64,000 nt of DNA from Bidens hawaiensis (Eukaryota; Streptophyta; Magnoliopsida; Asterales; Asteraceae), in assembly GCA_021521415.1 (NCBI GenBank), contig JAIQDT010000027.1:2875001-2939000 (forward strand), written 5' to 3'. Of the stretch, positions 5,681 through 45,493 are shown in pieces. The notes under the pieces are model-generated. The model worked only from the letters and a program-made list of their open reading frames with translations. It was not told the origin of the DNA and searched no databases. Numbering within the stretch: the first letter of the stretch is position 1; every line of letters starts with the position of its first letter. Made by a program: the position numbers and the translations under genes.

Positions 5681-5684
5681 TTAA

Positions 5685-6420: not shown

Positions 6421-6439
6421 CTACTTTGACGATTTTCTA

Positions 6440-6461: not shown

Positions 6462-6463
6462 AT

Positions 6464-7553: not shown

Positions 7554-7599
7554 TTTATTTAAATATTCTCTATATTCATTTATATACACCTATAATTAT

Positions 7600-8800
7600 T
7601 TTAGGGAAAACTCCGAAAATGTCCCTTCTACAAAAAGAGATCCCGAATATGTCCCCCTAATTCGAGTTTTTGGATTTGTTTCGAAGCTATCCCATCAGCG
7701 ATAACATGTTTGATAATCGAGTCGATGGGTTACTGATCCAATAATAACCCGTCGCCGACGACATATTTTCGAACATAATCCATCACCGACGACATGTTTC
7801 CAAACATAACCCGTCGGCGGCGACATGTTTTAAACGATAATATGTCACCAACAACATGTTTCCAAACATTAAAAACAAAAAACAAGTACAATAACATTAA
7901 ACATTCAAAAGATAAAGTTACATTCAATCTAACGGGGCAACTTCATAGATCAGTAACAAAGGTTTAAAAGGGTTAAAATTAGGTCACTCAACTTTAAAAA
8001 GTGTTCCAATTAAATCACTCAATTTTCATATTTTATTAAATTAAAGGTTTTAACAAGTTTTTTTTAGCGTTTTTCTTATTTGTTTCACATAGGAAATCTT
8101 TTTATCATTTTTTTATGTTGACTTTCAGTGGCGACGTGAGTTTTATTTTTTATTTATGAATTTTAAAATAATTAACTTTTTCAATCTATTTTAAATATAA
8201 CTACATATATTGAAATTTCCGACCCCCACATCTTATCCTCCATTTCTTTCTTGACGTACAAAAAAATCACTGAGACTCGATTTGAAGATTTAGTGACCCA
8301 ATTTGAGAAAAATATGCATGAGTGACCTAATTGGAACCCTTTTGAAAGTTGGTTACTATTCTATGAGCTATTCCCCAATCTAAAATTTGTTGATATCAAA
8401 AGTAAGAACATTGTTCGGAGCTTGAGTTGTGAAGCATGTTGTATGATCACCAAACGTGTTTACATTGGCTCGTGTATTAGCTTTTCAGACCTTCGGAGGA
8501 CGAGGGACTTTTATGTTTGGATACATGTCGTTGGGGACGTGTCATGTTTGAAAACATACCATTAACAGTGTGTTATCTTTGGAAAAATGTCGTTGGCGAC
8601 GTGTTATTTTTGGAAACATGTTATGGGTGACTGGTAATGATTGGATTAGTAACACATCATATCTGGATAGCTTCAGGACAAATCTAGAATTTCGGTTACC
8701 AAACACGTCGTCGTCAACTGGATAGCTTCAGGACAAATCTAGAATTTCAAGACATATCTGGAATCTCTTTCTATATAAAATAAAAATGTACATTCTATAG
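7600..8800. mobile_element. long-inverted-repeat (foldback/MULE-like) element
   Basis: The left arm (about 7627-7870) and right arm (about 8470-8780) are imperfect reverse complements over roughly 250 bp. For example, AAGAGATCCCGAATATGTC on the left pairs with the complement of GACATATCTGGAATCTCTT on the right, and GAAGCTATCC pairs with GGATAGCTTC. Inside each arm are repeated units of about 35 bp containing CGACGACATGTTT. There is no transposase ORF. Exact ends and a target duplication could not be fixed. It sits where the aORF of element A stops. Whether it is a Mutator-type non-autonomous element or another foldback class is open. Confidence 0.65.
7964..8360. repeat. smaller inverted-repeat insert inside the foldback element
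   Basis: AATTAGGTCACTCAACTTT near 7977 and AGTGACCTAATTGGAACCC near 8321 are inverted relatives, with more matching sequence on each side. The roughly 400-bp unit lies in the loop of the larger foldback, so it is either a nested MITE or the inner part of the same element. Confidence 0.5.
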
Positions 8801-11492: not shown

Positions 11493-11536
11493 GTTTGCTC
11501 GTGATTGTGTGGTTCGGGATTATCACACGAGTGTAG

Positions 11537-11541
11537 AAATC
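11537..11541 (+). repeat. target site duplication of gypsy D, left copy (AAATC)
   Basis: AAATC precedes the left LTR of D and is repeated at 20779-20783 after the right LTR. Removing D and one copy restores the leader of element C. Confidence 0.95.
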
Positions 11542-12405
11542 TGTGACAACCGGTAATTTCCCAAACCCATAAGCTAAGTAATCAACCTAATAATTAGGTG
11601 ACTGTAAATGATAAGCGCGTGCATTTGTTATGTGCGCCCTGCGCGAGCGCGCCATGATAGTCAGCGCGTGCAGTTGTTATGTGCAACCTGCGCGAGCGCA
11701 CCATGTTAAGAACCAGCGTGAGCATATGTTATATGCGCCATGCGTGAATGATTTGACTTTATGTTTTCATGTAACTTCAAAGTTATGTTGTCTATGGGTT
11801 GACCATCCCGCATGATGCTAAGGCGGGTGCATCCTACATCGTTTATGCGCGTGCGGAAGGGAACTAACCTACCCGCATGGCGGGAACGTTGAGAGCTAGT
11901 TTGTCTGAAGCTCCAAGATGGAATTGACTTCAACATGACTGATCACTATGTTGAAATACCAAGACCACCTGGAGAATCTACAAATGAAACTCAAGTCCCT
12001 AACTGCGAGAAGGTTACGCACCTACCCGCAGCAAAGACATGTCCTATACGCAGAAAGCTATGCGCACCAAGTTATACGCGCAGAACACTTGGTCTATTCT
12101 CCAGTTAAGGAGATTACTCCCGCCCGAAAGGAAACAGTAGCGTGTTTCAGAGATTTTCCACTTTTTACTGTACACTGACAAAAGTACCTGAAAAAGCACA
12201 CTGTAACATGAAAAGTCAACTGTCAGCCACCCTATTTTCACCAACCCCAGATCTGCATGTTCTGTCCAAATCAAATCAAAATCTTTTATCCACCACTCCA
12301 CTCTTAAGTAAATAATAATAACTTCTATACTTTATCATCATTACATTTAAATATGAAAAGATTTCAATCCCCTAAAGCAAGGGATTGTGTTCCCTTGAGT
12401 TTGCC

Positions 12406-12412
12406 TATAAAT
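12406..12412 (+). promoter_or_regulatory. TATA box in LTR of gypsy D
   Basis: TATAAAT in the context TTGCC-TATAAAT-TTGTAG, 864 bp into the LTR. The equivalent in the 3' LTR is at 19375. Transcription of D would start roughly 30 bp downstream. Confidence 0.7.
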
Positions 12413-12681
12413 TTGTAGCCTAAATTATCACCCAAAACACACTTCAAAGAACTACAAACTTGCACTAATCCTTTCCCAAGCATCCGTTGTTTCCAGCTCC
12501 GATCCTGTTACTAGGTAAGCCAAGAATATAACCTTGAGACCTACTATCCAACCCTTATATTCTCCTATTTCTTGATCTTAATATATATACTTGTTATTTA
12601 ATCGTATTCTAGACCTTCGATTCCGAGGCCAACACCAAGAAAACCCGAATCTCGATTAATCCCTTAACAAGAACCACAGGT

Positions 12682-12755
12682 GAGTCTCACAGCCCCTATT
12701 TTCACTGTTTTCACTGTTTTAAACTGCTTTCGGGGCGAGGGACACGTACTTAAAT
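12682..12755 (+). promoter_or_regulatory. conserved LTR block with a splice-donor-like AGGTGAGT
   Basis: The block reads ACAGGTGAGTCTCACAGCCC and runs on through an ACTGTTTTAAA and CGGGGCG part. A clearly related block occurs on the minus strand of the unrelated-sequence LTR at 62440-62515, in the same order. AGGTGAGT matches a plant 5' splice donor, but no acceptor in D has been tied to it. Confidence 0.55.
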
Positions 12756-12933
12756 AATGTTTTATCATGGTATACTTACAAGCTATGAAAGCGATTATGT
12801 GTTTGAGTTATGTTTCATGATGAGCAATGCAAACGGTTATCTAAGGTTTTCAATGTATGTGCGCTAGAACTCGAGTAAGTGATCACTTTACCATTGGAAC
12901 TCTAAGGGTAGGGACTGCTGGTTTGATCCGCCC

Positions 12934-13340
12934 ACTCGTAGGGGTCGCACCTCTTTGCATGGACGAGTGCCTGGCATGGGGCAGTACTATGGGGTTGAGC
13001 CCGCTCGTAGGGGTCGCGCCTCTTTGCATGGACGAGCGCCTTGTTTTCCGGCACAACGTCTGCGCGTAACCCGCGGGACGGTATCCTTAGCTCGTAGGGG
13101 CAATGCCTCTTTGCATGGACGAGCACAGTTTCTCAGAATTGTTCGCGCGTAACCCGCGAGACGGTATCCTTAGCTCGTAGGGGCAATGCCTCTTTGCATA
13201 GACGAGCATAGTTTTCCAGAAACGTCTGCGCGTAACTCGCGGGACGGTTTTACGTTATTTTAGCTCGTAGTGGCTGCACCACTTACATAGACGAGCACCG
13301 TATCCAGAATTTGTTCACGCGTAACCCGCGGAACGATTTT
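12934..13340 (+). repeat. array of hairpin-forming tandem repeats in LTR of D
   Basis: Five units begin at about 12934, 13003, 13090, 13173 and 13263, spaced 69-90 bp. Each starts with a CTCGTAGGGG-like arm and ends with the complementary ACGAG arm about 25 bp later, giving a stem. Between units is a second element, GCGCGTAACCCGCGGGACGG, itself containing the palindrome CCCGCGGG in most copies. The 3' LTR has the same array at 19903-20309. Confidence 0.85.
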
Positions 13341-13812
13341 TATCAGAATATTGTCAGAATTATGTGTCAATACGATTTTACCAAGCAGATGTTAATGATG
13401 TTGCCAGAAATGTTTCAGAATGATTTTATCAAGTTACTAAAACTTGTGAACTCACTCAGTTTATACTGATTCAAATGTTTTTACGTGTCTTTCAGGAGAT
13501 AACTAGGTAGCGCAGGGAGTCACACTTAGAGCACCACACGCTGAACATCTAAAACAAGCTTTTTGGAAGATTTTGGTTTTATCCCCTCGATGCGCACGGT
13601 TACCCGCCGCGCAAGGGGATATAGCGAGGAAATCTTCAGTTTTATACTTGGATGTTTCTTTTTGTAATCTTTGAACGATGTAATGTGTTTGTACTAAACT
13701 CCTCATGCGCAATAAAAATCTTTGAATGTTTTGCAATGGCCCGTGCTTAATTATCAATCCCCACTCGTGCGCGCCCGGCTGTTTCCGCCGCTCAGGGCCG
13801 GGTGTGACAGAT

Positions 13813-13824: not shown

Positions 13825-14039
13825 ACTGGTTATAGCGAATTAGGAAAAGAAGTTTTTAACCTAGACTATAACCTTTGGGGAATCGCATGAAATATTTTTC
13901 AAAGAATATTTTCAAAAGAATATTTTCAAAAGAAAAATCACACACGCACTTAGGAACACGGGTCACAGTGTCTAGAGAAGAACATTATGTGCTCTGAGTA
14001 CATGCGCTAAGTTTGTTATATTTTCTTTTTATGAAAAGA

Positions 14040-17000
14040 ATGCCTCCAACCAGAGCCAAGGGAATTACCATGACACCCGAGGAGCTCGCAGAAATAATCG
14101 CGCAGGCGATTGCAACGCATGAGGCCAGCAAGGCCGAATCTAGTCAGGGTCGCCAAGAGAACGAGACCCCAGAACCCGAATCAGGAGCCTTGAACAAAGG
14201 ATGCTCCTATAAAACATTCATGGCCTGTAAGCCTTGGCCGTTCAAAGGCACCGAAGGAGCCATTGGGCTCTACAATTGGATTGACAAGATGGAGACCGTT
14301 CTCTCCATCAGCGGATGTAGTGAAAACCAGAAGGTCCTTTACGCGACCTGCATGTTCCAAGAAGCAGCTTCGTCTTGGTGGAAGCTCCAAGTAAAGACTT
14401 TGGGGCGAGAAGTTGCTCTTCACAAGACCTGGGAAGAATTGAAAGAAATGATGATGAGAAAGTTCTGCTCACGCGCAGAAATTCAGAGCTTGCAACAAGA
14501 ATTCTGGAACCACACCATGGTAGGAACGGATATCGATGCCTACACCAATCGTTTCAACGAGCTTTGCCAGCTGGTGCCAGACATGGCAAACACAGAAGAA
14601 AAGAAAATCGAGAGGTACATCTTTGGGTTACCTCCTGTCGTTAGAGTCCCGCTCAACGCCGCCGCACCTCCGACCTTTGACGAGGCGGTTGCGCGAGCCA
14701 TCACCCTTACAAGGGATACGGTTCGTGCGGGTATGTTGACCGCTCGCTTGAACGAGCAGCGAACCTCTGACTCCAAGAGGAAATGGAACTCCCACCGAGG
14801 GTCAGACTTCAAGCAGCCACCGCCCAAGAAGCAGGAAAGCACAAGGGTTTACGCGATTCAAGCCGCGGAACCATCAAGGAAAGGATACAGCGGGCCTCGC
14901 CCATGGTGCAGCAAATGCAAGTATCACCACGAGGGTGAATGCGCAAAAATCGAATGCGCCAAATGTGGCAGACCAGGACACAAGGCAATGAATTGTCGCA
15001 TCAGAGAAGCTGGATCGAGCGACAGCTGCTACGCATGCGGGAAGCCTGGACACTTCAGTCGGGATTGCCCACAGAAAGGAAACCAAGCTCGCGGGAGAGC
15101 TTTTGTGATCGGCGCGGGTGAAGCAAAGGAAGAGCCGAATGTGGTAACCGGTACGTTTTTGCTTAACGGTCATTATGCATCTGTCTTATTTGATACTGGC
15201 GCTGACCTAAGTTTTATATCCCATGAGTTTAAAAACTCCCTGGGCTTAGCGACCAGTAGGCTAGACAAACCTTATACTATAGAACTAGCCAATGGTAGGC
15301 AGTTATGCGCGAATGAAAGGACTGAGCAATGTGTATTAGTCATGGGAGGTCATGAGTTCAATATAAACTTGTTGCCAATAGATTTGGGAAGTTTCGATAT
15401 TGTGGTAGGTATGGATTGGTTGGTCGAGAATCTCGCGGAGATTGTTTGTCATGAGAAGCAGGTTCGGATTCCACTGTTGAACGGAGAAACTTTGATGATT
15501 CAAGGGGAAAGAAAGGGAGTTGCGACGAAACTGATTTCGTGCCTAAAGGCGCGCAAGTGCCTAAGGAAAGGGTACTACGCCTTCCTGGCGCATGTAATAG
15601 AGAAAGGAGATGAGCGAAGAATTGAAGACTTACCTGTAGTGCGCGAATTTCCAGAAGTTTTTCCTAAAGATCTGCCCGGATTGCCGCCACCGCGACAAAT
15701 CGAGTTTCGAATTGATTTGGTCCCAGGAGCTGCGCCAGTAGCCCGAGCGCCTTATCGATTAGCTCCATCTGAGATGCAAGAGCTATCCAATCAGTTACAG
15801 GAACTTTTGGATAAGGGTTTCATACACCCAAGCTTTTCACCTTGGGGAGCTCCAGTACTGTTTGTGAAGAAGAAGGATGGTTCGTTCCGGATGTGTATTG
15901 ACTACAGGGAGCTGAATAAGCTGACAGTCAAAAATCGGTACCCCTTACCGAGGATTGACGACTTATTTGACCAGTTGCAGGGATCCAGTTATTATTCGAA
16001 GATAGATCTACGGTCAGGATACCACCAACTTAGGGTCCATGAGGAAGACGCGCCAAAGACAGCCTTCCGAACCAGATATGGCCATTATGAGTTCTTAGTG
16101 ATGCCTTTCGGGCTAACTAATGCGCCGGCTATATTCATGGATCTGATGAACCGTGTGTGCAAACCATACTTGGACAAGTTTGTGATTGTGTTTATAGATG
16201 ATATTCTAATTTACTCCCGAACCAAGGCCGAGCATGAGCAACACTTGAGGTTGATTTTAGAATTGTTAAGGAAAGAAAGGTTGTATGCAAAGTTTTCTAA
16301 ATGTGAGTTTTGGCTTAGAGAGGTTCACTTTCTCGGTCACGTTGTAAACGAGAAAGGAATACACGTCGATCCTTCTAAGGTTAAAGCCATCGAAAACTGG
16401 GAAGCGCCAAAAACCCCAACTGAGGTGAGGCAATTCCTTGGACTAGCTGGCTACTATCGACGCTTCATTGAGAACTTCTCCAAGATAGCTCTACCTCTGA
16501 CCGCGCTAACTCAGAAAGACAAGGTGTTTATTTGGGGCGAGAATCAGGAAGCGGCATTTCAAATGTTGAAACAGAAGTTATGTAGTGCGCCAATTTTATC
16601 TTTACCAGAGGGGACGGATGACATCGTCGTTTACTGCGACGCTTCACACCAGGGACTCGGATGTGTCCTTATGCAGCGAGACAAAGTTATAGCGTATGCC
16701 TCGCGCCAACTCAAGACCAATGAAAAGAACTACACAACGCATGATTTAGAACTTGGAGCGGTTGTCTTCGCGCTAAAGATTTGGCGCCATTACCTCTACG
16801 GTACGAAATGTGTAATCTTTACGGATCATAAGAGCCTCCAACATATATTCAATCAGAAGGATTTAAACATGAGGCAACGAAGATGGGTTGAATTGTTGAA
16901 TGATTATGATTGCGAGATCAAGTATCATCCGGGGAAAGCGAATGTGGTAGCAGACGCGCTAAGCAGAAAGGAGCGAATAAAAACACTACAGGTCAAGGCC

Positions 17001-18368
17001 CTAAAGCTAACAATTCACGCAGAGCTCTCTACGCGCATCCGAGACGCTCAGCAAGAAGCCTTGAAACCAGAGTTTGTTAAAGCTGAATTCCTTGGGGGTA
17101 TGATTAAGAATTTGGAACTTAAAGGGAACACTCGATATTTTGCCAACCGCATATGGGTCCCTCTCAAGGGAGGACTGCGCGAGCAGATATTAAACGAAGC
17201 TCACAAGACGCGGTATTCCGTACATCCTGGCGCAGACAAGATGTACCAAGATGTTAAAATGTTGTATTGGTGGCCCAATCTTAAAGGCGCCATCGCGACA
17301 CATGTCAGTAAGTGCCTGACGTGTTCAAAGGTAAAGGCTGAATACCAGAAGCCGTCGGGGTTACTTCGACAGCCAGAAATTCCCATGTGGAAGTGGGAAC
17401 AAATCTCCATGGATTTCATCACCAAACTACCAAGGACACCTGGGGGTTACGACACGATATGGGTTATTGTAGATCGGCTAACTAAGTCAGCGCACTTCCT
17501 GCCGATTAAAGAAACTGATAAAATGGAAAAGTTAGCCCGACTATATATTCGAGAAGTAGTTTCAAAACATGGAGTCCCAGTGTCCATCATTTCTGATAGA
17601 GATAGTCGGTTCACCTCAAGGTTTTGGAGATCATTACAAGAGGGGTTAGGTACTCGACTGGACATGAGTACGGCTTATCACCCCCAAACGGATGGACAAA
17701 GCGAACGAACGATCCAGACATTGGAAGATATGCTGCGCGCATGCGCGATCGATTTTGGAGGAAGTTGGGATACCCACCTTCCGTTGGTTGAATTTTCTTA
17801 CAATAACAGTTATCACACAAGCCTCAAGGCAGCGCCGTTTGAAGCGTTATATGGGCGCAAGTGTAGATCCCCACTGTGTTGGGCTGAAGTGGGCGACAAG
17901 CAAATGACTGGTCCAGAAGTGATCCAAGAAACAACAGACAAGATTTTTCAGATAAGGGATCGCCTTAAGGCAGCACGCGACAGACAGAAAAGTTATGCTG
18001 ATATGAGAAGGAAACCGTTGGAGTTTCAAGTAGGGGATAAAGTACTTTTGAAAGTCTCTCCATGGAAGGGAGTCCCCCGTTTCGGTAAGCGAGGAAAGCT
18101 AAATCCGCGCTACATTGGACCATTTGAGATCCTGGAGAGGATCGGTCCAGTTGCTTATAAACTCCGTCTACCCGCCGAACTCAGTGGAGTTCATGATACG
18201 TTTCACGTATCCAACCTCAAGAAGTGTTTATCTGACGAAACGTTGATTTTACCGTTGGAAGAAATTCATATTGACAAACAGCTGCACTTCGTAGAAGAAC
18301 CCATAGCAGTAACCGATTGGAAAGAACAAAAGTTACGCAGAAGCAAAATCAAGTTAGTAAAGGTTTAG
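14040..18368 (+). CDS. gypsy gag-pol polyprotein of element D
   Basis: One frame encodes about 1442 residues from the Met at 14040 (MPPTRAKG); upstream in-frame Mets at 14013 and 14031 are possible. Order: gag with the [15 protein letters not shown] capsid region (about residues 60-200), zinc knuckles [14 protein letters not shown] and [14 protein letters not shown] (about 305-345), protease [10 protein letters not shown] near 390, RT with [12 protein letters not shown] near 725, RNase H with [10 protein letters not shown] near 870, integrase with the HHCC zinc region near 1065 and DDE residues in [11 protein letters not shown] and GQSERT, then a chromovirus-type C-terminus. All catalytic boxes are present. 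The frame stops at TAG 18366, where relatives continue through a WNSRRGPEFTWERE-like stretch. It could supply copying functions if that tail is dispensable. Confidence 0.95.
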
Positions 18369-18476: not shown

Positions 18477-18500
18477 ATTTCGGGACGAAATTCGTTCAAC

Positions 18501-18510
18501 GAGGGGAGAA
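18501..18510 (+). other. polypurine tract of gypsy D
   Basis: GAGGGGAGAA directly abuts the 3' LTR start TGTGACAACC and would prime plus-strand DNA synthesis. Confidence 0.85.
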
Positions 18511-20778
18511 TGTGACAACCGGTAATTTCCCAAACCCATAAGCTAAGTAATCAACCTAATAATTAGGTGACTGTAAATGATAAGCGCGTGCATTTGTTAT
18601 GTGCGCCCTGCGCGAGCGCGCCATGATAGTCAGCGCGTGCAGTTGTTATGTGCAACCTGCGCGAGCGCACCATGTTAAGAACCAGCGTGAGCATATGTTA
18701 TATGCGCCATGCGTGAATGATTTGACTTTATGTTTTCATGTAACTTCAAAGTTATGTTGTCTATGGGTTGACCATCCCGCATGATGCTAAGGCGGGTGCA
18801 TCCTACATCGTTTATGCGCGTGCGGAAGGGAACTAACCTACCCGCATGGCGGGAACGTTGAGAGCTAGTTTGTCTGAAGCTCCAAGATGGAATTGACTTC
18901 AACATGACTGATCACTATGTTGAAATACCAAGACCACCTGGAGAATCTACAAATGAAACTCAAGTCCCTAACTGCGAGAAGGTTACGCACCTACCCGCAG
19001 CAAAGACATGTCCTATACGCAGAAAGCTATGCGCACCAAGTTATACGCGCAGAACACTTGGTCTATTCTCCAGTTAAGGAGATTACTCCCGCCCGAAAGG
19101 AAACAGTAGCGTGTTTCAGAGATTTTCCACTTTTTACTGTACACTGACAAAAGTACCTGAAAAAGCACACTGTAACATGAAAAGTCAACTGTCAGCCACC
19201 CTATTTTCACCAACCCCAGATCTGCATGTTCTGTCCAAATCAAATCAAAATCTTTTATCCACCACTCCACTCTTAAGTAAATAATAATAACTTCTATACT
19301 TTATCATCATTACATTTAAATATGAAAAGATTTCAATCCCCTAAAGCAAGGGATTGTGTTCCCTTGAGTTTGCCTATAAATTTGTAGCCTAAATTATCAC
19401 CCAAAACACACTTCAAAGAACTACAAACTTGCACTAATCCTTTCCCAAGCATCCGTTGTTTCCAGCTCCGATCCTGTTACTAGGTAAGCCAAGAATATAA
19501 CCTTGAGACCTACTATCCAACCCTTATATTCTCCTATTTCTTGATCTTAATATATATACTTGTTATTTAATCGTATTCTAGACCTTCGATTCCGAGGCCA
19601 ACACCAAGAAAACCCGAATCTCGATTAATCCCTTAACAAGAACCACAGGTGAGTCTCACAGCCCCTATTTTCACTGTTTTCACTGTTTTAAACTGCTTTC
19701 GGGGCGAGGGACACGTACTTAAATAATGTTTTATCATGGTATACTTACAAGCTATGAAAGCGATTATGTGTTTGAGTTATGTTTCATGATGAGCAATGCA
19801 AACGGTTATCTAAGGTTTTCAATGTATGTGCGCTAGAACTCGAGTAAGTGATCACTTTACCATTGGAACTCTAAGGGTAGGGACTGCTGGTTTGATCCGC
19901 CCACTCGTAGGGGTCGCACCTCTTTGCATGGACGAGTGCCTGGCATGGGGCAGTACTATGGGGTTCAGCCCGCTCGTAGGGGTCGCGCCTCTTTGCATGG
20001 ACGAGCGCCTTGTTTTCCGGCACAACGTCTGCGCGTAACCCGCGGGACGGTATCCTTAGCTCGTAGGGGCAATGCCTCTTTGCATGGACGAGCACAGTTT
20101 CTCAGAATTGTTCGCGCGTAACCCGCGGGACGGTATCCTTAGCTCGTAGGGGCAATGCCTCTTTGCATAGACGAGCATAGTTTTCCAGAAACGTCTGCGC
20201 GTAACTCGCGGGACGGTTTTACGTTATTTTAGCTCGTAGTGGCTGCACCACTTACATAGACGAGCACCGTATCCAGAATTTGTTCACGCGTAACCCGCGG
20301 AACGATTTTTATCAGAATATTGTCAGAATTATGTGTCAATACGATTTTACCAAGCAGATGTTAATGATGTTGCCAGAAATGTTTCAGAATGATTTTATCA
20401 AGTTACTAAAACTTGTGAACTCACTCAGTTTATACTGATTCAAATGTTTTTACGTGTCTTTCAGGAGATAACTAGGTAGCGCAGGGAGTCACACTTAGAG
20501 CACCACACGCTGAACATCTAAAACAAGCTTTTTGGAAGATTTTGGTTTTATCCCCTCGATGCGCACGGTTACCCGCCGCGCAAGGGGATATAGCGAGGAA
20601 ATCTTCAGTTTTATACTTGGATGTTTCTTTTTGTAATCTTTGAACGATGTAATGTGTTTGTACTAAACTCCTCATGCGCAATAAAAATCTTTGAATGTTT
20701 TGCAATGGCCCGTGCTTAATTATCAATCCCCACTCGTGCGCGCCCGGCTGTTTCCGCCGCTCAGGGCCGGGTGTGACA
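18511..20778 (+). repeat. 3' LTR of gypsy D
   Basis: Same length as the 5' LTR and differing from it at two positions by eye. TATA at 19375, hairpin array at 19903-20309, AATAAA at 20680-20685. Followed by the AATCGTTCCG... leader of copia C after the duplicated AAATC. Confidence 0.96.
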
Positions 20779-20783
20779 AAATC
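20779..20783 (+). repeat. target site duplication of gypsy D, right copy (AAATC)
   Basis: Matches 11537-11541 exactly. Confidence 0.95.
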
Positions 20784-21245
20784 GTTCCGTTCGTCTATTC
20801 GCGGGACGAGTTTACGTTGAAATACCGAGTTTTTATGTCCTACCCATCTCCCACTATCAAATATAACCCATAACACCTTCGCATACCTTGCAATACGTCA
20901 AATTAAAACCTGCAAAAACCTTGTGTTCATCAGGCAAAGTTGCCGTCACTATTCGTAGGGTTTAGGCGAAGATATTAGTTTAAGCGAAGTTATCATTAAC
21001 TTCGCTTGTCTCACAAGTTCGCTTGAATTAAGCGAAGTTAACATCAGGCGAAGTTAAGAAAGAAGCGAAGTTAGGAAGCGAAGTTAATCTCAAGCGAAGT
21101 TGAGAACAACTTCGCCATCTGAGTAAGCGAAGTTGTGGAAAACAAGCGAAGTTAAGCTTAAGCGAAGTTAGGCATAACTTCGCCTACTGGTCACTGTTCA
21201 GAAATAAAAAAAAAATGGTGTTTTCAAGTCGTGTTTCTCTGAACA
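20784..21245 (+). other. 5' leader of copia C with GCGAAGTT cluster
   Basis: This is the untranslated leader between primer site and gag, displaced from the primer site by gypsy D. From 20970 to 21185 it holds about a dozen GCGAAGTT motifs in both orientations, some directly paired (AAGCGAAGTTATC with TTAACTTCGCTT). A CAAGTTCGCTTGAATTAAGC stretch resembles the paired CAAGTTCGCC/GGCGAACTT in the LTR. No upstream ORF of note. Confidence 0.75.
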
Positions 21246-23859
21246 ATGACTTCGATAAACATTACGGAACTTGTGAAAATGGAAGTTGAAGCCGGTTCAG
21301 CTACTAAGGCCCCAAAAATGCTAAAGGGTACCGATTTCGTGGCTTGGAAAGATCGGTTTGAGCAGTATGTTAAATATCAAGATGCTAAGATGTGGGTGTG
21401 CATTCAAGATGGATACATTCCACCAACGGCCTTGTTTGAGGGTCGTGATCAGATTAAGAAATACAATAAGATGGTAGAGGAAGAAAAGAAGATGTATGAG
21501 GCAGAGAGTAAAGCTCATGAAGCAATCACCATGGCTCTTCCACAAGAAATTCTACACACCTTCAAGAAATACAAAACTGCTAGAGAGCTATGGGAAGCTC
21601 TAGAAAACCGATATGAAGGTAATGTGGGGATACGTGCATCCAAGATTAAGCTACTAAAAACCCAATTCTCGGTGTTCAAATATTTGAAAAATGAATCACT
21701 TGATGATATCATCACAAGATATTATCACCTGATGACCGAACTCAACAATTACTCCATTGTATACAAAGAAGAGGAGATAGTAGAGAAACTTCTTGATGCT
21801 CTTCCACCGAAATGGGAAATGTACACGGTTTTTATGAGAGAAGATAAAGAGTTTGCCGATATTGATTTGGAAACAGCAGTCAATAAGTTACGAACTTTTG
21901 AACTAAACATGGTTCGGAAAGAGACACCAACTGATCAGGTTCAGGATCCGGGAATGTACGGTGCAAAAGTTAGTTCAAGCTCAAGTTCAAAGTCAGAATC
22001 CTCTGCTTATTACTCAAAGGGAGAATCAAACTCAAATTCAACTCAAGATGGTCATGTGACTCTCAACATGGATGGTGATGTATGTTTCGTAGCTGCAGGA
22101 AAGAATTCTTCAAAACCTCAAGCCACAACTGGTAACTGTTCATCAAATGTTCCAACCAACAACTACTCTCAGATGCCCATGAGTGTTAAATCAGCTGAAC
22201 AGCAGTTTGCTCTCTATGCATCCTTCATTGCATCTTACGAAAACTACATCAAAGGTAAAATTGTCGACCCTGCAACTTTAGATGAAGACTATGATCAGAT
22301 CGATGCTAATGATCTGGAAGAGATGGATCTGCAGTGGCAGATAGCGATGATAGTAAGAAGAGTTAAAAGGTTCATGAAGAAAACGGGTAGAAAGTTCATT
22401 GGCGAAAGACCAGGGTTTGATAAGTCAAAGGTTCGATGTTATAACTGTCAACAAAATGGTCACTTTGCTTAGGAATGCACAAATGAAAGAATCGAACGTA
22501 GTCAGAACAGGCCTACACAACAGAATGGGGGAGGTAGTGAGAATAGGGCGATGATATCTAGACAGAATGGGGGATACAACTGGAATCTGCAAGTTGAGGA
22601 AGTGTTCGAACAGGCCAACTTGGTAAACATCGAAACTAGAGGAAGCGACAGAGAGATGAGAGAAAATCAAGCTTACATGGCAGAAGTGAACGATCAGTCT
22701 CTAAGGTAAGTTCTGAACTTCATTGTATGAAATGTGAAAATCTGTCTGAACAATTGAAAAGAGTAACTGATTAGTTTGTTAGTTTGGACGCTCAATTTAA
22801 AACGCTAAAAGAAGATCATCATTACACTAAAACTAGAGAAAACAGTTACTCGGTAAAAATAAAAGCTAGCGAAAAAAATATCAGAAGTCTTAAAGCCAGT
22901 CTAGCAGAAAAAATACAAGTAATTGATCTTAGTTATGAAGTGTTAGAAGAAAACACCAAACTAATTGCTGAAAGGGATAAACAGATAGCTGATTACCAGG
23001 TAAAAGTGGTGGAACTAAACAGAAAAATTGAACAGTTTAGAAATTCCTCCGCAATGCTTGATCACATCGTGAGTGTTCAACGTTCCCCAGCTAAAAAGGG
23101 GGGAATTGGATATTCTGAAGTTCCACCACCATATAACCATAACTATACATATGATCCTACCAATCAGAAATCTGTTGATGTTGAGATTAGTCAGACAGTT
23201 CCTGTCAAAGTTTCGATTAAAGAACCTGAAATAGTAAAAGCGAAACGAGTAAGCCTGTTTCAAATGTTTAGATTTTTGTTCCTAGTTCTGTCTCATCAAA
23301 TTCGGACAAGACATCCGAATCTAGTGAGATAAAAGAAGAGGTAGTGTTACTATAACGTGAAAAGAACTCTCCCCTAAACCCGTTTGTCCCACCATATGTT
23401 AGACAAACGAATAGCAATGCAACCTCAACATCTAAAACAACTATTGAGACGAAGGTTGAACACAGGAGTTGTTTCAGATGCAATCAAATAGGACACCTGA
23501 TTGCTGATTGTCCTCTAAATCAGAGATTCAGGAGTATGAGGCCTCAGAAAACTGAGAATAAAACGAAGAGAAATTATTATAATGGTAAGAATGCTAACTC
23601 ATCAAAGTTCAGACATTGGACTAAACCAAGATTTCAAAGATATCAATCTCAGTTTTTCCCAGTTAACAACCAAACCAACAATTATAACTCAGTTAATCCA
23701 CTATGGTTTGGATGGCCTCATAGTCAATTCTCAAGAAGGTATCCTATCAGAATTTACAGAAACTACTCTCAAAATGCCTTTGGGCAATCAAAGTACGGGA
23801 TGCCGTTTAACAGATTTAATCGACCCAAGACCAGTAGGTCTTGGGTCCCCAGATTTTAA
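21246..23859 (+). pseudogene. copia gag of element C
   Basis: Starts [17 protein letters not shown] and is open for 408 codons with the UBN2-like capsid core ([35 protein letters not shown]), a Ser-rich linker, the acidic [15 protein letters not shown] helix and the first zinc knuckle. That knuckle is broken by a TAG at 22470 ([17 protein letters not shown]). Past it come a charged coiled-coil segment in a shifted frame (22784-23332) and a second knuckle, CFRCNQIGHLIADC, at about 23475-23520. Gag ends in an Asn/Arg/Phe-rich tail at 23859, in a different frame from protease, so either a natural frameshift or damage separates gag from pol. Confidence 0.85.
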
Positions 23860-26800: not shown

Positions 26801-27073
26801 CAATTACGCGATTACGGTCTGGATTTCACTCAAACTTCTATTTGTATTGATAACACTGCTGCAATCTCAGTAACTAACAATCCCGTAAAACATAGCAAAA
26901 CTAAACACATTGACATTCGTCATCATTTTATACGGGATTGTGCTGAGAAGAAATTAATAGTGCTCGAAAAGGTTGATTCGTTAGATAATTTCGCTGATCT
27001 TTTTACTAAAGCGTTTGACAGAGCTCGTTTTCAAAATCTTGTGGAGCTTAATGGGATGATCAATCCAGAGTAA
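23860..27073 (+). pseudogene. copia pol of element C (protease, integrase, RT, RNase H)
   Basis: Protease: VVDSGCSRHMT near 23912. Integrase: H-H-C-C region near 24320-24460, then the core with RSDNGTEF near 24700 and NGVAERKNRM near 24810. RT: WVFKCKRDEKG near 25790, [10 protein letters not shown] near 25976, [11 protein letters not shown] near 26235. RNase H end: IDNTAAIS and the final stop at 27071-27073. Defects: frameshift near 24105; stop at about 24222 (APxEKN, CGA to TGA likely); the first integrase Asp is Gly (LHMGLFGPV where element B has LHMDLFGPV); and roughly 100 bp of RNase H, including its DADYGG-type box, are deleted near 26690-26740. Not functional. Confidence 0.9.
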
Positions 27074-27132
27074 CCGTATTTTTCGTTTTTATGTAAAAAA
27101 AAAAAAAACGTCACTATCGCTTAGAATTATGT

Positions 27133-27395
27133 CGGTTGCTTCCGTTTGAAGGACATATCTTCGGATGTGTTTGGTCCTCACTTCTACCAGTAGATTATGA
27201 GGATAGCAATTAACCAGATGACTGAAAGTGACCGGGGCGGTTTATGATGTGTTTTTATTCTTTCGCTGAAAAATAGTCGTTCATACTTAGTTAGAAGGAC
27301 ACATATTCGTATGCGGTCGGTCCAGCAGATCCATTGGATCTTCAGGATAGCCGTTTACCTGAAGAATTTGACTTGATCGGGGCGATAGAATTTAA
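27133..27395 (+). other. tandem two-hairpin RNA-like module in the spacer of element C
   Basis: Two copies. Copy 1 has hairpin 1 at 27150-27177 (ACATATC/GATGTGT around a TTCG loop, ending in TTGGTCC), hairpin 2 at 27183-27194 (TCTAC/GTAGA), then GAGGATAGCAATTAACCAGA. Copy 2 has hairpin 1 at 27297-27323 (CATA/TATG around TTCG, ending GGTCC), hairpin 2 at 27327-27341 (AGATCC/GGATCT), then CAGGATAGCCGTTTACCTGA. Both copies end in a CGGGGCG stretch. The same module is duplicated in element B (39182-39420) with different stem sequences. Likely a structured RNA element of copia; the role is unknown. Confidence 0.65.
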
Positions 27396-27553
27396 AATTT
27401 TTTTTGGGAGATGATATAATTTTTCAAGTCTACAACTTCGTAAGAAGTTTCTATACAATGTTTCTAAGAAAATTGATCCAACCTTGGGAAGTGATACACA
27501 AACTATTTCTGTGTGCTTAACTAGTGAAGTTATTAGGCCTAAAAGACTCTAGA

Positions 27554-28400
27554 ACAGTCATTGTATGTTATGGTAGCTTTTTATGGTGCGTAAAAGTTAA
27601 AGTGATACTAACTAAATCTTCTCGATTTAAAGGGAAGACTCATTAAGAGTTGTGTATGTCTCCATATACATCTTTCTGAATGATAGGCAGAAAAGCGATT
27701 ACCAAGTCATACACGAGCCCGTGAGTGTTCTGATTTCTGAGAAGATAGTGTGTCTAGTACCTGCAGTGATCCAGATTCGGGACTTGCAGTAGTCTACTGT
27801 TTGAAGCTTTGTAAATCTTTATTATTTAAAAAAAAATGATGATGTTAAGCCTTCTGAAGCCTATTATGTTATACTTATCAATCAAGAGGCAAGAAAAAGA
27901 AAGGGATGAAGACTCTAAAGATCAGATGTACTTACTGTTTAATCAGACACTACGGGTCGAGGTCAACTCGGGGTGACTTGGGGAAAGCCAAATACGGTTT
28001 GAGAATAGATAGGAGACATCACTTCTCTGATGTGTTGTCCATTATATTTTTTGCTTAATTGAACCTAATCCGTATCACAAAAGCGATGAAAACCATACTA
28101 AGTTGTTTACCTGCTTACAACCTGTTTCTTTATGTAATAATGCCGCTGAACATGGATCTATGTGACAGCCACTTAATTAGTATGATTCCTGTTCGGATCT
28201 TTTCTAAAACATGCTGGTCCCCGACAAGACTGAAATTTGATCCCGTTTACTTAATTTCTAAAATTTTCATTGCATATTTTGTTTTATGGTTGAAAACTTG
28301 GTTACTTGTTCTTTGATCGTAACATTTAATCTTTAAAGGAAATTATTAAAAGATAATTGCATTGTATTCAAAGTATGAGGGCCTGTTATGTAAATTTGAT
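27554..28400 (+). other. conserved non-coding spacer after pol (element C)
   Basis: Closely matches element A 4821-5680 and, in blocks, element B 39522-40170. No supported ORF. Starts ACAGTCATTGTATG and includes GAATGATAGGCAGAAAAGCG near 27686. Confidence 0.7.
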
Positions 28401-29150
28401 GCTAGGCGAAGTTGTGCAGGGTAGGCGAAGTAGTTAAGGGGCGAAGTTATGGATAAGCGAAGTTAACCATAACTTCTCCTGGGCATATTCAGATCTATAT
28501 AAAGGTCAACTTAGTCAAATCTTTTATACTTTTCACAAAACCTAAGCGAACTTATCACATAAACCCTCGGCGAAGTTATATCTCGAATCAAAACTTATTG
28601 TTTATCTCCGTTTTAATCCATGTTAAAGGTGTGTAGGGTCGAGAGACTTATAATTAGTGTCAATGTCGTTAATTAAATGTCGTTTTGGTCCGATTTCGGA
28701 TCTCGTTCATGCAAATCATTACACACCCGCTTTTCAAACTCATTTTTAATGTGTTCGTAACTAATGTGATCGTCTAGATCTCTTTAGTATCATGTCTTTA
28801 TTGTCCACAATCACCAAATTCACCAAATTCATATCATCTGGCCTTCTGAACACTCGCCGTTTCAGTTCAGGCGAAGTTATAGTTTAGGCGAAGTTGTTCC
28901 CAACTTCGCCTTAGACTTAACTTCGCCTGCTGCTTTGACTTTTAACTAATCAGGGGCGAAGTTGTTCAAGGGGCGAAGTTATCCTTAACTTCGCCTTTTC
29001 CCTAACTTCGCCTGGTGCTATACACATTATTTAAATGTTAATCTGTTATCAGGCGAAGTTATTGTATAGGCGAAGTTGTACTCAACTTCTCCCTAAGTCT
29101 AACAAAAGTTTATCTTAACTTCGCTCATGGTAATAGGCGAAGTTATGAAT
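28400..29150 (+). repeat. GCGAAGTT motif cluster before the aORF (element C)
   Basis: About 17 copies of GCGAAGTT or AACTTCGC, with two full modules (forward-forward-reverse-reverse) near 28870-29010 and a third that has lost part of its reverse half by a deletion near 29103. Same arrangement as 5685-6420 in element A. Confidence 0.88.
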
Positions 29151-32178: not shown

Positions 32179-32193
32179 TGCCAAGGGGGAGTC
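32179..32193 (+). other. polypurine tract of element C
   Basis: TGCCAAGGGGGAGTC ends at the LTR start. Confidence 0.8.
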
Positions 32194-38000: not shown

Positions 38001-38577
38001 AGTCCTATGGTTTCTTATATGAATGCAGTAAAGAGAATCTTTAGATATTTGATGGGAAGACCAGATCTAGGAATTTGGTATCCAAAGAATCAAGTCCTTG
38101 ATCTGACTGCCTACATAGATAGTAACTATGATGGGTGAAATATGAGTAGGAAGCCCACTTCTGGAGGTTGTCAATTTTCGGGTGACAGATTGGTGTCATG
38201 GCAATGCAAGAAACAGACTACGGTGTCAATCTAAACTGCAGAAGCTAAGTATATTGCTGCATCTACCTACTGTGCACAAGTCCTCTGGATTCAAAATCGG
38301 ATGCTGGATTATGGTCTGAAATTCTTAAATACCCCTATTTACATTGATAACACTGCTGCATCATTTATTGTTAAGAGTCCTATGCAACATTCTAAGACTA
38401 AGAACATTGAAATCAGACATCATTTTATAAGAGATTGTAGTTAAAAAGGTTTAATTGAGTTAAAAAGAGTTGATACAAGTGATAATTTGGATGACCTATT
38501 CACAAAACTACTTGATAGAACCAGGTTCAACATTCTTTCGAAAGCCCTGGGCATGATCAACTCTAATGAAGTCTGAT
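35092..38577 (+). pseudogene. copia pol of element B
   Basis: Protease MDSGCSRHMT near 35132. Integrase zinc region near 35535-35670 and core with LHMDLFGPV, RNDNGTDF and NGVAERRNRTL, so all three acidic residues are still encoded. RT runs 37131-37997 with [26 protein letters not shown] and [10 protein letters not shown]. RNase H at 38000-38577 includes STSGG-type, TAEAKY-type and YIDNTAA boxes. Broken by stops at about 35854, 35959, 36103, 36193, 36229, 37108, 37996, 38137, 38232 and 38442. Some are CAG-to-TAG or TGG-to-TAG transitions and others are transversions. Inactive. Confidence 0.88.
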
Positions 38578-39181
38578 TAATGATGTGTGCTTGATTGTAC
38601 AAACTGATTATCTTTTGAATATCATGTTGAATGTTTGTTTGATTTGTGCCTCTATTTGCTAATTACTATTTTGGTAGAGGATCTAAAATTTATTATGTTT
38701 GAATGTGATTCTGTTTGCTGTTTATTGATCTAAGTTCAATTGATTAACTGGAAATCCTAGGTATTTTTGATGCTGTGGATAATTATCAGTGACTGTATTT
38801 GATATCTAGTTAAGTGCTTGATTTGATTAGATAATTTGTGCTTGTCTGATATCATGATTATGTGTTTTATCAAATGTGATATTGTTAGGATGTGCTAGGC
38901 TATGCATTTTGTGAAGTCTGCTTGTTTTGATGATGCCACTGATGACTTGAATATGTTACACTTGTGTCTATGTCAAAACGTGCTTTTGTGTCAAAAGATG
39001 TTCTCAAATGAAATCTTGTAAGAAGCTTTTGTTCAAAACATTTTTGATAAAACAGAGCAAGTTGTTTAATGGTGCTGAGACTTGATAATACTATTCAGTT
39101 CAAAGCTTTATAGAAGCTTAAAAGGAAATTTTCAACAAAGAGTCTCAAAGAGTTACTTTTGCTTAAAATCATGTCATTTGC

Positions 39182-39420
39182 TCAAGTTGAAAGGGCATAT
39201 ACTTGTATATGTTTGGTCCTATCATATGTTTTCATATTGAAAATATACCCATTAACCTGGAAAACTGAAAGCTTTTGGGACAATTCTAACTTGTTTTCTA
39301 TTCTTTCACTTAAAATTATGTCAATAACTCTAAGTTGAAAGGATATGTATTCTCATATATGTTTGGTCCTGTTAACCACTTGTGGTCAAACAGGATAGCC
39401 ATTTACCTGAAAATTAAGAG
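39182..39420 (+). other. tandem two-hairpin RNA-like module in the spacer of element B
   Basis: Copy 1: hairpin 1 at 39193-39219 (CATATAC/GTATATG, ending TTGGTCC), hairpin 2 at 39224-39237 (ATATG/CATAT), then ATACCCATTAACCTGG. Copy 2: hairpin 1 at 39341-39369 (ATATG/CATAT, ending TTGGTCC), hairpin 2 at 39368-39394 (ACCAC/GTGGT inside CCTGTT/AACAGG), then AGGATAGCCATTTACCTGA. Homologous to 27133-27395 in element C. Stem sequences differ but pairing is kept. Confidence 0.65.
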
Positions 39421-39947
39421 AAATTGGGGTGACTCAATATTAAACTTTGTAATTGGGAAATGTTAGTACATTGACTACTTAGCCAATCATATGGATTTAA
39501 TAGGCTAAAAAGACACTTAGTACAGTCATTGACATGTACTGTTTCTTTCCCATGATGTGTAAAATCCAAGGTGATATAAACTTATAGATACTGCTAAGCT
39601 TAATGTGGAGTTACATTGTTGTCTATGCATGTTCCTTTATATATCTTTTCGAATGATAGGCATAAAAGTGATTATCCAGTCAAACACGAGCCCGTTGGTA
39701 TTTGGTCCCCAAAATGAAGTATTTACAAAAGAATGACAAAGAACAAAGCATGAGCTAAATGTATTGTTAAAACAACACAATGTTGTTATGTGCTCACAAA
39801 AAAAGGGTGTTCTGTCATTAATATTTTTAATAGAACCAAATCCAGGGGGTCAAAGTCAAGTAGGGGGGATCTGGAGAAATCCAAATAAGCCTTGAGAATA
39901 GATATGGAGCATCATATGTGTTATCCATTAGTATTACGCACCCTAAA

Positions 39948-42589: not shown

Positions 42590-43366
42590 ATGGCTACCAT
42601 AAAGAGAATTCGAAACCTAAATACAGGAGGGCTTGGTCCTAGCTCCACTTACGGTTTAAGGCCATGCCACTTTAAGCATTTCCACGAGTTTAAGGATGGT
42701 AGACCTGGGTCCTCGGGGTTTTTCTCGCCTATTTGAGTACATGCAAACTACCCATTTCAAAACGGATACTCAGAAGAACCTTTTAAAAGATTCTATCTCC
42801 AAGGATTTGGACCTTTTTATAGATGTTGGGGAAGCCCTTCGGGCGGGGCATAAATGGTTATGTGGGAGGTGCATGACGTTGCATGCCCTTAGCAGGGGGT
42901 GCAAGCATGTTGATGGTGTCTATTCTTTTTCTGTGGATTCTGGAGATGCTGGAGAATTCATCGTTGGGATCCAGAAACCTAATTGTGTGTCTGTGGATAG
43001 GGACCCAGGTCCATCAGTAGGAGTGGTAGGGGATGTATCCCTTTTGGAATGGGTTTCTCCCTTCCCATTCAAACGGTTAAGAGCATCCCCCAAGTTAACA
43101 TTTGGCGTTTGCTCAGACTTTGGCATGCGCTTTACGCAAGGTAGTGGATTCACTAGGCTCGATTGAGAATTGGGTCAAATTACTATTGTTGCCGCGTTGT
43201 ACTTTAAGGGTGTTGAAACCTTCCACTAGGCAGGAACGCAGGTCAGGGAATCAAAAGTCTTTGCAATGTAGTAGCATACAGCAAGCACATGCGGTGTGGA
43301 AAGATGGATCGGGTTTTGCTGACTTGGTTCTTTCTCTTTTGATAACATGGGGGAAGCACTTTTTCT
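42590..43366 (+). pseudogene. N-terminal region of the non-LTR element protein
   Basis: Three overlapping frames (starting at about 42590, 42696-43166 and 43102-43366) carry the pieces. The second contains a Cys/His group, CGRCMTLHALSRGCKH, near residue 55, which could bind zinc. The third carries LLLLPRCTLRVLKP and NQKSLQCSSI, which I recall as typical of this widespread plant RT-like family (memory, unchecked). It leads into RT after a stop near 43366. At least two frameshifts separate the pieces. Confidence 0.6.
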
Positions 43367-43375
43367 AAAAGTGAT

Positions 43376-45493
43376 GTGGGAGGGGAGGAGGGTTCTGAAA
43401 ACAGCCTCAATATTAAACAATGTCTCAGGAATGTCAGGGATGGTCATTTCACAGCTGCAGTCAAGGTATTATGCTCAAGTGGGGTTGCCCCTCTCGGAGA
43501 TTCAACCATGAAAGCCCTCATTGATAAACACCCAGTGGTGCCGCCTCCGTCCTTGCCTTCTAGCTATGTCGGCCTGCCTACTCTCTCTGTGGATGGGGAC
43601 TGTGTGCTTAGATGTATCTGGTCATTTCCTAAAGGGACCTCATGCGGGAGAGACGGGATGCGGGCGCAACACTTGTCGGACGCTCTTAGTGGTGAGGGAT
43701 CAGTGACTTCCATGGGTCTGCTCTCAGCCATCACTGAAGTCGTCACTGAGTTTATTGCTTCGGCCCCCCTTACCCCTTTATTAAAGCCTGATAATGGAAT
43801 TCGGCCCATTGCTGTGGGGGCTATCTGGCGTAGGTTTGTTTCTAAAGTGGCTATGAAGTTGGTTTGGAAGGAAATGACTCAGTATTTAGGGGACTTTCAG
43901 TTTGGGGTAGGGAACCCTAATGGGGCAGAGGCGGTGCTTCACAGCGTGAACCGGTTTCATAAATCCTTTCACGCTGACGGTTCTTTAGCTATGCTTACCA
44001 TGGACTTCTCCAACGCCTTCAATATGGTCGACCGCACAGCCCTTCTCAGGGAGGTTTATCATCATTGCCCTTCTATCTATCTATGGGTCCAGTTTCTTTA
44101 TGCCCAGCCGGCTAGGTTTTACATTGGTGATGACTATATAGGGGCTACTACTGGGATTCAGCAGGGAGACCCCCTTGGGACCGTCCTCTTTGCGTTAGCA
44201 TTACACCCTCTTGTTCTCCGGGTACAAAATGACTGTAACCTCCCATTTCATGCTTGGTACTTAGATGATGGGACTATTATTGGTGGTGCCAACGAAGTCG
44301 CTAAAGCCCTAGACATTATCAGCTCGGAAGGGCCATCATTGGGGCTGCAACTTAATATTAAGAAAACCGAGGTTTTTTGGCCAGCGTGTAATGAGGTGAA
44401 AGTCAAAGATGGGCTTTTCCCTAGTGGGAATGGTAGACCAGAGAGAGGGGTAAAGCACCTTGGAGGGGTTGTTAGTCGAGATCCCTACTTTATTAAGGAG
44501 TTGGCGAGGCGGAGAGCATCTCGTGCGGTTGATCTTATGAAACTCTTACCTTTCCTTAGGGATCCCCAGATCGAACTCCTCTTGCTTAGGTCTTGCATGG
44601 GGGTTGCTAAGTTGCTTTTTGGGGTACGCACATGCCACCCCCATATGATGGATGATGCAGTATCCTGTTTTGATAAGGGGCTTCGAGAAGCCATCGAAGA
44701 CATAGTTGTATGTGGAGGCCCGTTCTTTGGTGATCTTCAGTGGCGACTTGCATCTTTACCGATGCGCTTGGGTTGTTTAAGCCTTCTTTCGGCTCATGAT
44801 GTTGGGGTTTACGCTTTTGTAGCGTCGAGGGCTCAGTCTTGGAAGCTACAGAATCACATCTTAAGGAATAGCGGAGTTGTCGACCTGGACTCAGACTACG
44901 TGCAGGCCCTGGAACGCCTAAATGGCGCTCTCCCAGACTTTGACATTGGCGGTTTCTCTAATACGGACACCGCCCCACCAAAGCCTCAAAAAACTTTGGC
45001 AAATGCCATTTTTGGCAAAATCGCTCATAGCCTGGGAGATGTTTTTGGATTGTCCCTTCTACAGAAGGCGGTTATTGAATGCTTACAAGGTCCTCATGCC
45101 CAAGATTTTCTGACCGTTATCCCGGTTGATGGCTTGGTCCAAAGCATGTCTGCGGTCGAGTATAGGGCCATTCTAAAGTACCGATTGATGGTCCCAATGT
45201 ACCCAGAAGACGAAACATGTTCGATCTGCCATAAGGCTTGCCTGGATAAATTCGGAGAGCATGCAGTTCATTGCAAGGAGATGCCTGGGTTCAAATACCG
45301 ACATGATTGGGTGCGGGACGTTCTTTGGGACATCTTAAGGCGAGCTGGGATATCAGCTAAAAAGGAAGCCCCAATAAACTTCCTTACAGTCCCCACGGAA
45401 GGGAGATCCACTCTACGTCCGGGAGATTTGCTCGTCTTTGGTTGGGCCGGGGGAAAAACGCTTGTGTTGACCTCACATGGGTATCTCCTTTAG
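43376..45493 (+). pseudogene. reverse transcriptase core and C-terminal knuckle of the non-LTR element
   Basis: An open frame of 705 codons. Entry motifs FPKGTSCGRDGMRAQHL near residue 80 and GIRPIAVGAIWRR near 140; motif A LTMDFSNAFN near 210; motif B IQQGDPLG near 262; catalytic motif C WYLDDGT (44258-44269, YLDD rather than the usual YADD). A long thumb-like region follows. At 45218-45274 a compact Cys/His group (C-x2-C, then H and HC) precedes an RPGD motif near 45416. The frame shifts at about 45450, and the rest continues in the next frame from 45442. Product: RNA-dependent DNA polymerase of non-LTR type; inactive as it stands because of the frameshifts. Confidence 0.8.

Follow-up and report, generated by a model that had tools for sequence, protein, structure and literature searches.

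The noncoding RNA behind the pol gene of two nested copia retroelements, here called B and C, carries in each element two tandem copies of a unit of about 145 to 150 nucleotides (nt), and we are highly confident that the fold predicted for this unit has been maintained despite sequence divergence in element families A and C and in family B, subfamily D included. The four units lie in a 64,000-nt stretch of the Bidens hawaiensis genome (contig JAIQDT010000027.1, positions 2,875,001 to 2,939,000 of the forward strand), which we call the window and to which coordinates refer unless a locus is named (Table 1). A profile made from the four units recovered all of them in a search of both strands of the window, with E values of 9.5e-22 to 3.2e-19, the next match having an E value of 0.027. 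An initial annotation made from the letters alone had placed four copies of a module at these sites, and the stems that it quoted, as well as the C(TTCG)G loop of the first copy in C, were found in the sequence. It had described the module as two hairpins spanning 66 to 79 nt; the hairpins stood, but the aligned similarity runs well past them and the whole unit is closed by a basal stem.

By reading, C is inserted in the gag of B with a 5-bp target duplication (GGTTC), and a motif at 11481 is presumably the primer-binding site of C. The domains of C follow one another as gag_pre-integrs, rve, SH3_retrovirus, and RVT_2, which places integrase before reverse transcriptase in the Ty1/copia order, and RVT_2 was also found in B. 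A third element, gypsy-type by eye, lies inside C (gag-pol open reading frame [ORF] 13998-18368, long repeats 11527-13809 and 18499-20778). Before the 3' long terminal repeat (LTR) of C stands the purine tract AGGGGGAG (32184-32191), followed in the window copy by TC and TTTTGG, not AT/TG; in B, the exact AGGGGGAG is absent between 47823 and the 3' LTR at about 51750. Long open frames lie downstream of the units in C, in B, and in two copies of A, behind a long linker, in keeping with the SIRE trait of an extra 3' ORF (aORF). The distance from the units to the aORF is about 1.8 kb in C, inferred from a homologous frame at 6446-7660, and about 2.5 to 2.9 kb in two A copies, where the nearest open frame of 110 amino acids or more served as the end point. 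Among the best 120 of 7,980 matches in a protein similarity search, most of those with a named source came from Asteraceae and a few came from grasses or other groups. The elements that house the units look like SIRE-lineage copia elements with an extra 3' ORF, with the purine tract junction fitting only in part. A passage in PMC6317226 gives such an ORF for 74% of SIRE elements and sorts the ORFs into 19 groups with little or no mutual similarity.

Several other features were seen in these elements. The 5' leader of C (20779-21250) holds many AAGCGAAGTT-like boxes, and similar boxes with an inverted pair (28403-28479) precede the C aORF; their distribution resembles that of Sirevirus RM boxes, with a different core. 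ORFs at 42660-45493, in the B linker between the units and the aORF, have by eye the look of a non-LTR-type reverse transcriptase. The start of the B aORF (46502-47131) has a weak Pfam match to Transposase_32 (E value of 3.7e-5, 24.1 bits, below the curated cutoff of 45), and the aORF of family A is similar by eye to that of B around a short FNFSEMIF-like stretch.

Folding of individual copies, several of them better preserved than those of the window, gave a recurrent architecture that forms one closed structure. From the base inward, it consists of stem P0a, a 2x2 internal loop, P0b, a 10-nt A-rich bulge, P1 to P3, P4 (AGG:CCT), and a three-way junction that bears P5, which is hairpin 1 of the initial annotation, and P6. 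The latter is built of P6a (TGGT:GCCA), a 3-nt bulge, P6b (CCT...:...AGG), and P6c, with a 4-nt loop in most unit classes. RNAalifold, run on the four window units, likewise paired the basal ends and extended hairpin 2 into the tail that had been annotated as invariant. In the predicted fold, the 5' and 3' ends of the unit pair together, as seen in one exemplar copy for each of eight unit classes. Minimum-energy folds of the decayed copies and of C2 depart from the common architecture, C2 being the poorest fit among the units, and in C1 one of the five P0a pairs is formed in the aligned register.

Table 1. Positions of the RNA units, their helices, and associated features in the window. R1 is a model built from B and C units only; hairpins 1 and 2 are those of the initial annotation.
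Feature	Position	Strand	Remarks
pol stop codon, element C	27071..27073	+	31 nt to unit C1 as aligned
RNA unit C1, first tandem copy, element C	27105..27250	+	128.8 bits with R1; row among those from which R1 was built
C1 basal stem, 5' strand	27110..27121 (P0a 27110-27114, P0b 27117-27121)	+	partner 27236-27247
C1 A-rich bulge, 10 nt	27122..27131	+	
C1 long stem P1-P3, 5' strand	27132..27147	+	partner 27219-27235
C1 P4, 5' strand (AGG)	27150..27152	+	partner 27214-27216; one of three pairs mismatched in C1
C1 hairpin P5, loop TTCG	27153..27170	+	upper part of hairpin 1
C1 hairpin P6	27172..27209 (P6a 27172-27175:27206-27209, P6b 27176-27181:27197-27202, P6c 27183-27186:27191-27194)	+	hairpin 2, extended
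C1 basal stem, 3' strand	27236..27247	+	
RNA unit C2, second tandem copy, element C	27253..27400	+	P0a 27256-27260:27388-27392, P0b 27263-27267:27381-27385
C2 inner helices	P4 27296-27298:27358-27360, P5 27299-27316, P6a 27318-27321:27350-27353	+	stem of hairpin 2 within 27327-27341
pol stop codon, element B	38574..38576	+	569 nt to unit B1 as aligned
RNA unit B1, first tandem copy, element B	39146..39297	+	decayed; P0a 39152-39156:39286-39290, P0b 39159-39163:39279-39283
B1 inner parts	bulge 39164-39173, P5 39195-39212, P6 39214-39251	+	
RNA unit B2, second tandem copy, element B	39298..39447	+	146 bits with R1; row among those from which R1 was built
B2 parts	P0a 39299-39303:39435-39439, P0b 39306-39310:39428-39432, bulge 39311-39320, P5 39343-39362, P6 39364-39401	+	
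Conserved noncoding stretch 3' of the units	C 27530..27722; B counterpart 39497-39695; also 4821-5010	+	

This architecture changes the reading of several parts of the module. The "nearly invariant single strand" of the initial annotation (AGGATAGCC-ATTTACCTGA) is mostly base-paired, as AGG:CCT in P6b, GCCA:TGGT in P6a, and CCT:AGG in P4. The lower stem of hairpin 1, AGGAC:GTCCT, is 95.0% paired in the B and C units, but none of its five pairs is changed there on both sides. Covariation was seen in competing pairings, namely in several pairs of P6b, in a single pair of P6a (through C2), and in a single pair of P4, the last confined to family A. In A, the inner P4 pair is A-U in nine units and G-C in nine; B and C have AGG:CCT at P4, apart from the mismatch in C1. 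The stems of hairpin 2 had been described as paired in all four copies; B1 of the window is decayed in the lower stem, which its sister copies mostly retain. Farther 3', a noncoding stretch of about 200 nt is conserved at about 69% between C and B and is possibly another functional domain of the linker. The consensus fold of that stretch was weak (28 pairs, 2 with a double change), and no convincing common fold emerged.

The claim that paired changes in the stems mark a selected RNA structure found strong support, which held in tests outside the sample from which the fold was read. For families B and C, 32 units (6 C1, 6 C2, 10 B1, and 10 B2) picked from 116 were scored over 52 pairs. Standard pairs filled 84.3% of the cells, compared with 35.0 to 40.3% when the partner strand was slid by one to three columns. 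Doubly changed cells that were still paired numbered 162, against 79.5 in shuffled alignments, and the covariation score was 0.275, against 0.165; on neither measure was any of 500 shuffles as high. Two of the five shuffle measures were not exceeded, namely the 22 double-change pairs (263 of 500 shuffles as high) and the number of further pair types (500 of 500). The covarying pair types were CG/UA and GC/AU in P0b, AU/GC in P1, UA/CG in P5 and in P6a, and several in P6b and P6c. One MAFFT alignment (A4) misplaces hairpin P5 of B2 and was left out of the counts.

Folds predicted from a single copy also transferred to units that had no part in the prediction. These held-out tests used one copy per class, chosen as well preserved (C1 and C2 of locus L002, B1 of L029, and B2 of L017). 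The fold of the B2 copy, carried over to the two C units, paired 77 of 93 cells and 16 of 21 doubly changed cells, for which the null mean was 5.1 and none of 2,000 nulls was as high. The B1 fold on C was equaled by at most 1 of 2,000 nulls and the C1 fold on B by none, while the C2 fold on B failed against its null, which was as high in 126 of 2,000 draws for cells paired, 373 for changed cells, and 623 for doubly changed cells. Transfers within an element beat their nulls, B2 on B1 with 0 of 2,000 as high and C1 on C2 with 4 to 22 of 2,000. When strands were swapped among units, own-strand pairing gave 172 pairs over all helices, compared with 169 for the best of 23 other assignments and a mean of 156.9; P3 and P4 taken alone had no own-strand preference.

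Family A provided a sample that had not entered the model. Copies were collected from the 3.47-Gb host genome, and the query for A was a piece of DNA from element A of the window that covers the end of pol and the first part of the spacer and contains no unit sequence. From the best 40 of 5,703 candidates that were scored, 12 loci were taken, one of them the window itself, and all 11 of the others carried two tandem units as judged by the profile. R1 reported 20 of these 22 units, with E values of 1.8e-28 to 1.4e-17. In the alignment fitted to R1, 89.1% of the cells of the 20 A units were paired, compared with 38.2 to 44.3% when slid; 14 pairs had a double change, a count reached in 16 of 500 shuffles, and covariation scored 0.322, against 0.213 (0 of 500). 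Further pair types in these 20 units were not above shuffles, 491 of 500 being as high. De novo folds, which are free of any fit to the model, recovered a mean of 49% of the model pairs in the 20 A units (range, 0 to 98%), whereas 1,200 shuffles gave a mean of 0.6% and a maximum of 26%. The extremes were unit 1 of L065, with 0%, and unit 2 of L068, with 46 of 47 pairs. The A copy within the window (L064) has undergone rearrangement and lost its units; a 390-bp piece of pol is repeated in it at 95% identity (3370-4822), and at 4821 it changes to a C-type linker and aORF (4821-7546).

The module had been annotated in two copia families, and its occurrence in family A and in subfamily D shows a wider range. 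The 3' part of element D lies near the right edge of the window (56857-58728, minus strand), with its pol end just beyond; D is 81% identical to B at the pol end and has two units at positions 7961-7667 of L078. The D-unit query gave 41 matches (the best 40 of 3,579 candidates were scored), of which 20 were made into loci; 3 of these 20 coincide with places already found by B, and we therefore treat D as a subfamily of B. Overall, units were found in 90 of 93 genome loci, two of them in 89 of the 90 and four in L087. These loci are drawn from the best 40 of 1,338 (C) and 4,077 (B) candidates and from the A and D sets above, and the 90 represent 86 distinct places (repeats L078/L079, L083/L049, L089/L039, and L096/L041). 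The queries for B, C, and D covered both units and so are biased toward two-unit copies, which the A query was not. The three loci without units are the rearranged A copy and two stretches taken further downstream (L076 and L077). In L087 (1166-1802), the four units are arranged as two pairs, the second unit of the first pair being incomplete, a possible duplication of the unit pair.

At default settings, R1 called two of the four window units; in a set of 15 loci drawn from A, B, C, and D, it called 20 of 30. The missed calls may come from neighboring units that overlap at the ends of the model. The 20 units fitted, among which C2 is absent, were 89.4% paired and had 24 double-change pairs, against 18.3 in shuffles (0 of 500 as high), with a covariation score of 0.379 (0 of 500); further pair types were as high in 68 of 500 shuffles.

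Among the model pairs, G·U was commoner than A·C, which is what a G·U pair becomes when the opposite strand is read; the counts were 181 and 35 in B and C and 163 and 27 in A. The sense RNA is therefore the strand that folds. Folding energy gave less. The pairing is better than chance by covariation, and by folding energy only moderately so, the four window copies having z scores of -1.22, -2.51, -0.75, and -2.48. Over six unit classes, the mean z score against dinucleotide shuffles was -1.64 to -2.59, with 2 of 138 units above zero. Antisense units scored alike (mean z of -3.06 for C2, -1.75 for C1, -1.48 for B1, and -1.30 for B2), as did five of the 14 flanking-window sets (means of -1.41 at B -400, -1.78 at B +1200, -1.67 at C +300, -1.95 at C +1200, and -1.28 at C -1200), the other nine having means of -0.66 to 1.14. 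Energy z scores were for this reason dropped as main evidence and kept as support.

The two unit types may be older than the families. In the best tree of 30 units, C1, B1, and A2 stand against C2, B2, and A1, with support of 85/82. A grouping of A1, B1, and C1 by order was not rejected (p-AU of 0.267), and grouping by family was at best weakly rejected (p of 0.046 for C, 0.078 for A, and 0.114 for B). We set aside homology by order for the best tree, which swaps A. That tree would mean two old unit types whose order is swapped in A, and the support for it is only moderate.

As to function, we tentatively favor a reading in which the unit pair would act in cis as a post-transcriptional element of unspliced, full-length RNA, serving its export, its stability, or its escape from decay. 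The pair would form a double binding platform for proteins of the host (or of the element), through which RNA that extends very far beyond the pol stop could leave the nucleus and escape decay, much as happens with the transport elements and stability elements of retroviruses. Joint action of the two units would explain the near-constant count of exactly two per collected copy. What recommends this reading is the position behind the pol stop, the look of a tandem protein platform, and the parallel with the Rous sarcoma virus (RSV) stability element and the mammalian transport elements; in B, C, and two A copies, the units sit between the pol stop and a distant aORF. A simple role in decay escape close to the stop codon is harder to reconcile with the variable gap between the pol stop and the first unit: 31 nt separate them in C, 569 nt in B, and about 310 nt in one A copy, by the position equivalent to that in the window. 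Passages of PMC6277124 also count against such a role, reporting that in plants an unstructured stretch 3' of the stop codon protects from decay, although a readthrough structure is reported there to protect as well.

The main rival, which we consider rather unlikely, is a packaging or Gag recognition signal, in which the two units would bind the zinc-knuckle region of Gag, mark the RNA for particles, and perhaps aid dimer formation. Sense-strand RNA with two structured units in 89 of 90 unit-bearing loci would suit it, and a 3' site is compatible by analogy with yeast Ty1 and Ty3, whose Gag sites are described as not precisely defined in a part of PMC4974528. The units lie behind pol, however, away from the 5' end, and the apical loops of four exemplar copies (TTCG, TTCG, CTTG, and TTCTCA in P5; CCAG, CCAT, TTTT, and CTTG in P6) are non-palindromic, so that self-dimers by loop-loop contact are unlikely. 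The position after the pol stop and before the aORF, as annotated, is correct, and an element for aORF expression, acting by internal ribosome entry, readthrough or reinitiation, formation of RNA ends by decay arrest, or splicing control, would draw on the long open frames downstream and on the way in which a tandem pair of structured units recalls viral decay-resistant RNAs. We regard it as improbable: the distances to the aORF given above weaken any role tied to it and make entry or readthrough less likely, anywhere from 31 to 569 nt separates the units from the pol stop, and each unit is closed by a basal stem, whereas decay-resistant RNAs have a threaded 5' end.

Two further explanations fare worse. 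It is very improbable that the structure serves to feed or to evade silencing by small RNAs, or that the units are repeats at the DNA level like the Sirevirus palindromic boxes. Parts of the literature give this view some footing, in that palindromic regions of maize Sireviruses draw small RNAs (PMC10760457) and the boxes cluster ahead of the envelope-like gene (PMC2829016); but the units are branched, covarying, sense-biased, and nearly always two, not short many-copy CGG-CCG palindromes, and selection to keep a silencing trigger is unlikely. That there is no selected structure at all, the pairing being an appearance due to relatedness and base composition, was already disfavored and is hardly credible. 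Few independent lineages are at hand (three families with two units each), two of five shuffle measures in B and C were not exceeded, energy z scores resemble those of antisense and some flanking sequences, and the fold was first read from the same sequences, in copies chosen as well preserved. The out-of-sample result in family A and the single-copy held-out tests speak against this explanation, as do slid controls that are only 35 to 44% paired.

Within the window, ARAGORN found no tRNA-like genes and Rfam 15 gave no matches at the gathering score, and we discarded a tRNA or known RNA family as an identity for the units. The DNA palindrome boxes of Sireviruses (RM boxes, with a many-copy CGG-CCG core) were not found in the unit sequences when these were compared by eye with table 3 of PMC2829016. 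Relatives in viral and prokaryote collections were also dismissed: pattern matches (L009 to L011) had no unit, another search found none, and two matches in bacterial records (L062 and L063) were taken as chance. A 241-amino-acid piece of reverse transcriptase found nothing among viral contigs, and searches of open-licence PMC papers turned up no such RNA element. The tandem folded pair points to an unrecognized working part of the element RNA. In maize, about 21% of the nuclear genome consists of SIRE-lineage elements (Sireviruses), according to a passage in PMC3599292. A short, well-bounded, strongly covarying RNA element lends itself to a covariance model with which elements of this kind can be found and classified, and the units could be used as bait for host proteins that handle SIRE-lineage elements.

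Several known systems invite comparison. The tandem exonuclease-resistant RNAs of flaviviruses are, like the units, two tandem copies with a three-way junction in a noncoding region. In those RNAs, an unpaired 5' end passes into the fold through the ring of a pseudoknot, whereas the two ends of our unit pair together in the predicted fold of the exemplar copies, where no threading pseudoknot is evident. The linker of Sireviruses, a matching region of comparable elements, holds conserved noncoding motifs (multiple polypurine tracts [PPTs] and RM boxes) according to portions of PMC2829016. Those portions report for Sireviruses purine tracts, palindromic boxes, an inverted repeat located at the PPT, a promoter region that is conserved, and an integrase signal. 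The linker motifs are unlike the units, being an 8-nt purine tract and short CGG-CCG palindromes, with no 145-nt branched RNA described in those portions. Closer in size is the RSV RNA stability element (RSE), in passages of PMC2925335 a structured RNA of about 150 nt that lies 3' of a stop codon in full-length retroelement RNA whose post-stop region is very long; the minimal form of the RSE is 155 nt and directly follows the gag stop. Here, in contrast, two homologous closed units stand behind pol at a variable distance, and the likeness is claimed without a sequence relation. The constitutive transport element (CTE) of Mason-Pfizer monkey virus (MPMV) is a cis element that exports unspliced RNA. 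The IAP RTE and musD MTE of mouse, treated in parts of PMC12786077, likewise export unspliced retroelement RNA in cis, as the units may do by analogy; those elements work through NXF1 in mammals (PMC12786077), a difference that we count against the favored reading. A bolder and doubtful proposal is that the units represent a new class of RNA control in plant retroelements, an obligate pair of unlike units, X and Y, whose split would predate the families, in the order X-Y in B and C and Y-X in A, forming a two-part protein platform that would provide the genomic RNA of the SIRE lineage with an export route and a decay protection of its own, as a plant counterpart of CTE/RTE-type elements.
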